64,000 bases of DNA from Psychrobacter aquaticus CMS 56 (GTDB lineage Bacteria; Pseudomonadota; Gammaproteobacteria; Pseudomonadales; Moraxellaceae): assembly GCF_000471625.1 (NCBI RefSeq), contig NZ_AUSW01000030.1, positions 62,001 to 126,000 on the forward strand, in the 5' to 3' direction. Shown here piece by piece: positions 14,353 to 14,496 of this stretch; position 1 is the first letter of the stretch; each line of letters starts with the position of its first letter. The position numbers and the translations under genes are program-made. The notes below the pieces were generated by a model. It saw only the letters and a program-made list of their open reading frames with translations, was not told where the DNA came from and ran no database searches.

Positions 14353-14496
14353 TATAGTCGATACTGAATAAAATGAATACACAACATTATAGAGCGAGAC
14401 TGATACAAATTTTCTTGCTTGCTGTGCCTGCGCAGCTCGATGCTACAAAAAATTTATCCCAGCCTCGCTGACGCTTTTTTATATTAATCTGACTAG
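14353..14496. repeat. TATAGTC-bounded palindromic repeat, copy 2
   Basis: Begins TATAGTCGATACTGAATAAA and ends near CTGACTA. Nested arms GCGAGACTG...AAATTTT and AAAAAATTTATCCCAG...CTCGC enclose the core TTGCTTGCTGTGCCTGCG. It differs from copy 3 by scattered substitutions along its whole length. No ORF is present. Confidence 0.75.

Follow-up and report, generated by a model that had tools for sequence, protein, structure and literature searches.

The short intergenic repeats scattered through the genome of Psychrobacter aquaticus CMS 56 are, judging from their sequences, very probably a family of MITEs derived from IS630 and mobilised in trans. The copies carry no transposase of their own; the enzyme would come from a full-size IS630 IS (about 909-916 bp) in other strains, or arrive on mobile DNA. 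An IS630-family transposase would recognise the 29-nt ends, excise the element and insert it at a TA, which would be duplicated. Sub-families have different ends and arms around nearly the same core, inside a long palindrome. Because the ends match those of a full-size transposon of related species, we provisionally place the repeats as a new family in the same group as the Correia elements of gonococci and meningococci. The family is ordinary in kind; its shared core and apparent stranding are unusual. This reading would explain an abundant intergenic repeat in the genus Psychrobacter, and it offers a series of genomes, with a relative of the transposase in place, in pieces or not found, for following MITE bursts and stranding.

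The window, the whole 64-kb stretch of DNA analysed here, had been predicted from its letters to hold at least six copies and three fragments of a repeat with TATAGT-type ends, inverted arms and a TTGCTTGCTGTGCC core. We searched it with a profile model (R1) built from 30 aligned copies found with the copy at 14.4 kb. The features are as follows.

6502-6643, plus strand: full MITE copy, 142-bp type (R1 78.2 bits; core 6562-6575)
14353-14497, plus strand: full MITE copy, 146-bp type (R1 161.2 bits; core 14415-14428)
15347-15492, plus strand: full MITE copy, 146-bp type, with eroded outer ends (R1 139.7 bits; core 15408-15421)
17988-18133, minus strand, the orientation being that of the core: full MITE copy (R1 96.2 bits on the plus strand, 82.9 on the minus strand; core on the minus strand, 18069-18082)
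22665-22694, unstranded: possible end fragment (30 nt matching the right end of the 6.5-kb copy at 90%; R1 E 0.28)
41095-41201, unstranded: 107-bp element with TATAGT-type ends, without the core as read (R1 30.4 bits, E 0.012)
42043-42072, unstranded: possible end fragment (70% over 30 nt; no R1 match)
43949-44078, plus strand: decayed copy, recognisable mainly by its core (R1 37.1 bits, E 0.001)
46087-46233, plus strand: full-length, eroded copy (R1 67.3 bits)

Ends (some of them eroded), arms and core are all borne out in the full copies. Five of the six predicted copies, at 6.5, 14.4, 15.4, 18.0 and 46.1 kb, are full and match R1 at E 1e-8 or better, a density of five per 64 kb against an earlier estimate of about one per 7-10 kb. 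The sixth, at 41.1 kb, lacks the core and reads as a different element with the same class of ends, outside the family; it is perhaps another IS630-type MITE. Of the fragments, that at 44.0 kb stands as a decayed copy, and those at 22.7 and 42.0 kb are end fragments at most. The core itself is exact at three places in the window and has one mismatch at a fourth; the TTGCTTGCTGTGCC 14-mer alone, with three mismatches allowed, does not occur in the window above chance. The 14.4-kb copy lies directly upstream of a ferredoxin-like gene on the opposite strand, and the 15.4-kb copy lies upstream of a coaD-like gene (both genes named by eye).

Between the 14.4-kb copy and the coaD-like gene, at 14582-14757, there is also a second, unrelated MITE-like palindrome of 176 bp with ends TAGGGCGTGTCATCA. 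The stretches L226, L229 and L240 hold further copies (72-91%), and a fragment lies near 8.1 kb. The palindrome at this position is common to Psychrobacter vallis, which has three copies of 95-97% elsewhere, and was not seen in the other species aligned.

What defines the family? The 30 copies align over 146 bp with a mean column identity of 84%. The 146-bp consensus starts with TATAGTCGATACTAAATAAAATGGATACA, and its other end, read inward, is TATAGTCAGGTCAATATAAAA; across the 30 copies the consensus ends are TATAGTCGATAC... and TATAGTCAGGTC.... Each 29-nt end consists of TATAGT, then an ATAAAA block at about positions 16-21 and GATACA at 24-29. Inside lie inverted arms, GCGAGACTGG...CCAGTCTCGC, and the core, AAATTTTTCTTGCTTGCTGTGCC...GGCTACAAAAAATTT. 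Copies of 138, 146 and 161 bp, together with the 142-bp copy at 6.5 kb, have different ends and arms and a common core; the 6.5-kb copy shows this in comparison with the consensus, and the 161-bp type has other sequence in place of the right part of the core. Conservation is highest in columns 58-76, the core's left half (0.96), in the A-tract (0.95) and in TATAGT (0.94). The rest of the ends and the arms stand at 0.79-0.88 overall (ends beyond TATAGT 0.82-0.87, arms 0.87-0.88), and the right half of the core, at 0.78, is among the least conserved parts. One candidate for the core, a DNA-uptake or other free-standing signal, was rejected: CTTGCTTGCTGTGCC occurs nine times in 464 kb of host DNA and not at all once the repeats are masked.

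The family is genome-wide. In the host genome (3.22 Mb in 38 contigs) the 14.4-kb copy used as a query has at least 40 matches. R1 has at least 149 at E <= 0.01 among the best 150 of 1793 candidates, which were scored. These fall at 144 or more distinct places, five of them matched on both strands; the figure is a floor that leaves the window copies at 6.5 and 46.1 kb outside. A sample of twenty 20-kb stretches at round positions (400 kb) yields 25 distinct places at E <= 0.01, which scales to about 200 for the whole genome.

Among the genomes searched, the family is almost confined to Psychrobacter. R1 at E <= 1e-4 has matches in 24 of 119 genomes of a Moraxellaceae set: 23 of 26 in the same genus, the host included, and one of 93 in other genera, with a single match. 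This last figure serves as a chance control at E <= 1e-4, under stricter filters than the counts at E <= 0.01; 75 matchless genomes were put in other genera by their order in the table, after three same-genus ones. Copy number varies widely. P. vallis, the host's nearest named relative among the loci compared, has at least 147 matches (150 candidates scored), uncultured Psychrobacter 3-1235 has 75, P. luti 23, P. immobilis 17, NZS113 3, and strain 4Bb and P. frigidicola 2 each. P. luti (G121) and another genome of the genus (G096) have identical match places, from which the genus group is taken to be Psychrobacter. R1 finds nothing in a Moraxella MAG, two Thiobacillus MAGs and a beta-proteobacterial MAG, and the 14.4-kb copy has no match among the PLSDB plasmids.

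Two empty orthologous sites, which the original prediction had made a check on mobility, were found. The copy at L238:7538-7683 is the base-exact case: the filled site in the host reads GAGGATATAGTTG...GACTATAAGTTG and the empty site in P. vallis GAGGATAAGTTG, so the insertion is at a TA, exact to the base, and has duplicated it. (L238, whose alignment to the G043 record of a related genome runs over the ends of that record, is perhaps an origin region. Three GTTTCACGTGAAAC sites, which we take to be parS-like chromosome-partition sites, occur in the 464 kb, at L235:730, L238:1106 and L238:7225.) The 15.4-kb copy is absent from seven of the eight Psychrobacter loci aligned; the eighth has no clear alignment at the site. 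Five of the seven empty loci read GTAGCAG-ATAAGTATT, that is, GTAGCAGATAAGTATT (GCAGATAAGTATT); P. immobilis differs from this at the last base, and P. frigidicola reads ATGAGTATT. Because the ends of this copy are eroded (GCAGAGATATTCAGG...GACTATCAGTATT), the site is consistent with a TA target and its duplication and is not base-exact.

Movement seems to have been both recent and old. In G043, 8 of 18 copies read are identical (two of 20 loci failed the copy filter and were left out), which argues that the family moved recently. The 14.4-kb copy and four of five L238 copies are common to the host and P. vallis, so part of the family predates the split between them; the P. vallis counterpart of the 18.0-kb copy lacks about 85 nt. 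Wherever placement was tested it is intergenic: of 23 full copies, 5 from the window and 18 from the sample, none has more than 5 nt inside a called ORF, although ORFs cover 79% of the DNA. The ORFs here are crude (100 aa or longer, overlapping shorter ones dropped), and the count leaves out the seven weaker of the 25 places in the sample.

At 138-161 bp the copies have no room for a transposase, and the prediction that they would be mobilised in trans gains support from the empty sites, the hundreds of copies and a matching IS. The IS630 transposase model NF033545 matches all 12 Psychrobacter genomes first searched at E <= 0.001, eight of them above the curated cut-off; in the host it has three weak matches only, the best at E 1.2e-4. 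The good matches sit within elements of 907-921 bp, with TATAGT at the start and ACTATA at the end. We divided these, after their ends were seen, into a group A of eight elements, 909-916 bp, with ends ...TAAAnnnGATACA or a close variant, and a group B with ends ...AAAAnnGTTATG/A. A full-length IS with the same kind of ends, the search for which the original prediction had made a further check, thus exists at 909-916 bp in other Psychrobacter genomes.

How close is the match between ends? Matrices were made from the ends of 22 of the 30 MITE copies (eight with incomplete ends were dropped), with TATAGT itself left out. The 16 group-A ends (10 distinct sequences) score 12.3-23.6 bits. As background, 196 further occurrences of TATAGT in the 464 kb of host sequence have a median of -26.4, a 99th percentile of -1.4 and a maximum of 8.2. 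Group-B ends score 0.5-8.7 bits. These figures leave out an alternative left end of the L157 IS, at -31.8 bits; the L163 element is absent from the automatic list of IS ends. Of 23 positions compared, the MITE left end shares 19 with the best IS end; MITE right ends agree with group-A ends at 14-17 of 23, and ends of the 138-bp type at 9-15 of 23. The likeness is strongest for group-A IS and the 146-bp type; an IS630 transposase of this kind would move the MITE copies.

The state of the enzyme differs among genomes. The group-B transposase of L163 (282 aa) is open throughout and carries PF13358 and PF01710; those of L144 and L148 are split over two or more frames. Of 27 genomes searched, P. 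vallis not among them, 23 have relatives of the L163 enzyme, intact or not, at E <= 1e-5; 22 of these belong to the genus, which is represented by 26. The host has no such transposase at E <= 1e-5, and for that reason its copies now look stranded. Relatives of the helper can travel, since a 915-bp group-B IS with TATAGTC ends and an 89.5% identical transposase sits on a plasmid of Psychrobacter sp. KFRI-CH2-11 (CP151284.2).

Some observations count against the IS630 reading. The best-matching IS is absent from the genome that holds the copies, and many copies are common to P. vallis, as expected of old insertions. G043, with its recent burst, has only pieces of such a transposase, and G102 has 35 transposase matches and 3 MITE matches; G102 shows that the IS can abound without many MITEs.

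Might the hairpin serve the host? Transcripts through a copy would form hairpins and could be processed. The elements may have begun as IS630 MITEs, some of them now kept because the hairpin or the core acts, for example, as an RNA-processing or transcript-stability signal; we think this possible but doubtful. In its favour, no columns are better conserved than those of the core's left half and the A-tract, and the core stays much alike while the ends and arms of the sub-families change. Against this, the core's right half ranks with the least conserved parts, and several species have only two or three copies. Five copies present in both the host and P. vallis (the 6.5-kb copy, which has no continuous alignment, stands outside the count) give a mixed answer. 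As whole elements they change no more slowly than the DNA around them (23 of 737 sites in the elements, 83 of 2397 in the flanks). Their central 33 nt show 0 changes in 165 against 23 in 572 elsewhere, a hint of constraint in a region chosen after seeing the data, with one of the five copies having a different centre.

The test of structure is equally divided. When the hairpin of one copy is imposed on the 30 copies, 84.8% of cells pair, against 83.7% in shuffled and 41-49% in slid controls. Cells changed on both sides number 25, against a shuffled mean of 15.5 (none of 500 as high) and 6-15 in slid controls, which favours a host role; covarying pairs and pair types are not above the shuffles (94 and 407 of 500), which does not. 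Palindromic DNA yields paired RNA without selection on the RNA, so a palindrome kept in many copies, as this one is, does not by itself demonstrate such selection. Fixed promoters as the function were set aside on inspection by eye, since the G043 sub-family does not preserve the TTGAC seen close to the right end. A non-mobile family of structured RNA genes, or an old duplication, has in its favour that one of five copies folded singly forms a very stable hairpin (L026, z -5.5). The other four give z -1.7 to -3.3, Rfam finds only RNase P and one tRNA in the window and does not match the repeats, sites are empty in relatives, and identical copies stand at eight places in G043. We regard this explanation as the least credible of all. 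A REP/BIME or ERIC-type family, with REP moved by a RAYT (Y1) transposase, had been suggested for the repeats and is scarcely more credible. Like such families they are intergenic, palindromic and present in high copy number; ERIC is considered here by description only. They are elements of 146 bp, not palindromic units of 20-40 bp as the abstract of PMC3733652 gives for REP, and they have terminal inverted repeats, a TA duplication and ends that match IS630. That suggestion is therefore set aside, and IS630-derived MITEs remain the preferred reading.

We examined Neisseria because the TATAGT ends of the Psychrobacter repeats and of Correia elements are alike. Among 399 genomes of one order, five match a Correia-repeat pattern taken from a passage in PMC5039591 (166 times in G391, 28 in G477, 8 in G173, 3 in G504 and once in G361). 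Copies from three of these include typical 107- and 157-bp Correia elements. The uptake-sequence motif occurs 89 times in 122 kb of these genomes and once in 400 kb of Psychrobacter. Because of the Correia elements and these motifs, we treat the genomes as Neisseria-type.

One of them, G477, holds an IS630 element of 905 bp whose ends read TATAGTCAATTAAAATAAAAATAGGACAG and TATAGTAAATTAAAAACGAAATAGTACAA. Its transposase is found at E <= 1e-20 in 17 of 46 genomes of that genus, and nine distinct complete elements were read from five genomes. Scored with matrices of Correia ends (L294, which holds a nested, different copy, was left out of them), the ...AGGACA ends give 6.9 to 10.4 and the ...GTACAA ends -1.2 to 6.4. 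The maximum is -1.5 for the 196 Psychrobacter TATAGT sites, a background from another genus used because the 44 Neisseria sites (95th percentile 33.8 bits) were spoiled by further Correia copies. Of the 23 positions beyond TATAGT, 13 and 16 are the same in Correia and IS ends, whichever way these are paired, so whole-end identity does not pair one IS end with one Correia end. The 914-918-bp IS of Neisseria-type genomes have ends that do not match Correia ends. In the other four Correia-bearing genomes there is no full 905-bp IS (a 56-aa piece in G391, nothing in three), which lends the link no support unless one allows for loss of helpers.

In N. gonorrhoeae NZ_CP119142.1 (2.17 Mb, filed as a plasmid) a relative of this IS, 91% identical, has six full and some partial copies. 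All six full copies have the same 149-nt interruption near IS nucleotide 92, so that the unit multiplied or was copied after insertion. By eye, the insert in the one copy read (L359) is a diverged Correia element; there, at L359:343-1399, the IS630 element and the Correia-like insert make up a 1057-bp unit. The partial copy L368 has a Correia start, TATAGTGGATTAA, followed by IS sequence. At W01:961989-962082 its IS left end with TATAGTGGATTAA runs into a Correia-like element that finishes in TATA, beyond which other DNA follows; the arrangement may represent a composite MITE.

The 905-bp IS is thus a concrete candidate helper for Correia elements, which affect Neisseria gene regulation. A passage in PMC2817692 (2010) counts Correia and RUP elements among IS630-derived MITEs. 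Partial texts of other papers disagree: PMC2229807 (2007) names only RUP as having a matching IS, PMC2649163 (2009) calls the mobilising mechanism of Correia elements undetermined, and PMC3898611 (2009) suggests IS1106 as the mobiliser. For Correia elements, roles in promoters, IHF and RNase III are given in part of a review (PMC10969869). The IS630 class of Correia elements is therefore already published, with disagreement, and only the specific 905-bp partner may be new; the Correia literature searched, from which Buisine 2002 and Siddique 2011 are absent, does not name it. A bolder proposal, which we put forward tentatively and think improbable as a whole, joins the two systems. The core would be a module, useful to the element or the host, passed between MITE backbones with different IS630 ends; the same TATAGT-ended IS630 group would move both our family and Correia elements; and insertion of a Correia element into the recognisable helper copies of the gonococcal record examined would have stranded the copies there, much as in the host.

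The claim that no named family fits is true within the literature searched, in which we found no such repeat in Psychrobacter; the RUP and Correia elements are close in kind. MITEAba12 of Acinetobacter and Moraxella is likewise a MITE (about 113 bp) from the same bacterial family, and a resident IS mobilises it in trans. It differs in its ISAba12-type ends, GGCTTTGTTGCA..., and its 9-bp target duplication (a passage in PMC6382973); the Psychrobacter ends are not of this kind and the duplication is TA. REP and ERIC are intergenic, palindromic and present in many copies, and REP differs in its length and in its link to RAYT, as described in part of PMC2817692. Correia elements (CREE/nemis) share with our family TATAGT ends, a TA target, palindromic structure, intergenic placement, hundreds of copies and sub-types; their 107- and 157-bp forms have ends resembling a TATAGT-ended IS630 of Neisseria-type genomes. 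They are described as unique to Neisseria in the part of PMC5039591 available. Their ends start TATAGTGGATTAA..., a 26-bp repeat not found in the consensus ends of the 30 Psychrobacter copies; the bodies, compared by eye, differ and have no common core. RUP of Streptococcus pneumoniae, according to a passage in PMC2229807, is a 107-bp IS630-type MITE with a TA target, 108 copies and IS630-like ends, and its presumed helper IS is common in that species (part of PMC3049150). RUP, which we know by description only, lives with IS630-Spn1 in another host and phylum and is shorter than the Psychrobacter repeats. A helper IS in the same genome was not found in our host at E <= 1e-5, but it is not a strict requirement, since helpers can be lost. 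In the remaining features of RUP (small size, ends shared with IS630, a duplicated TA target) the Psychrobacter family is of the same kind.
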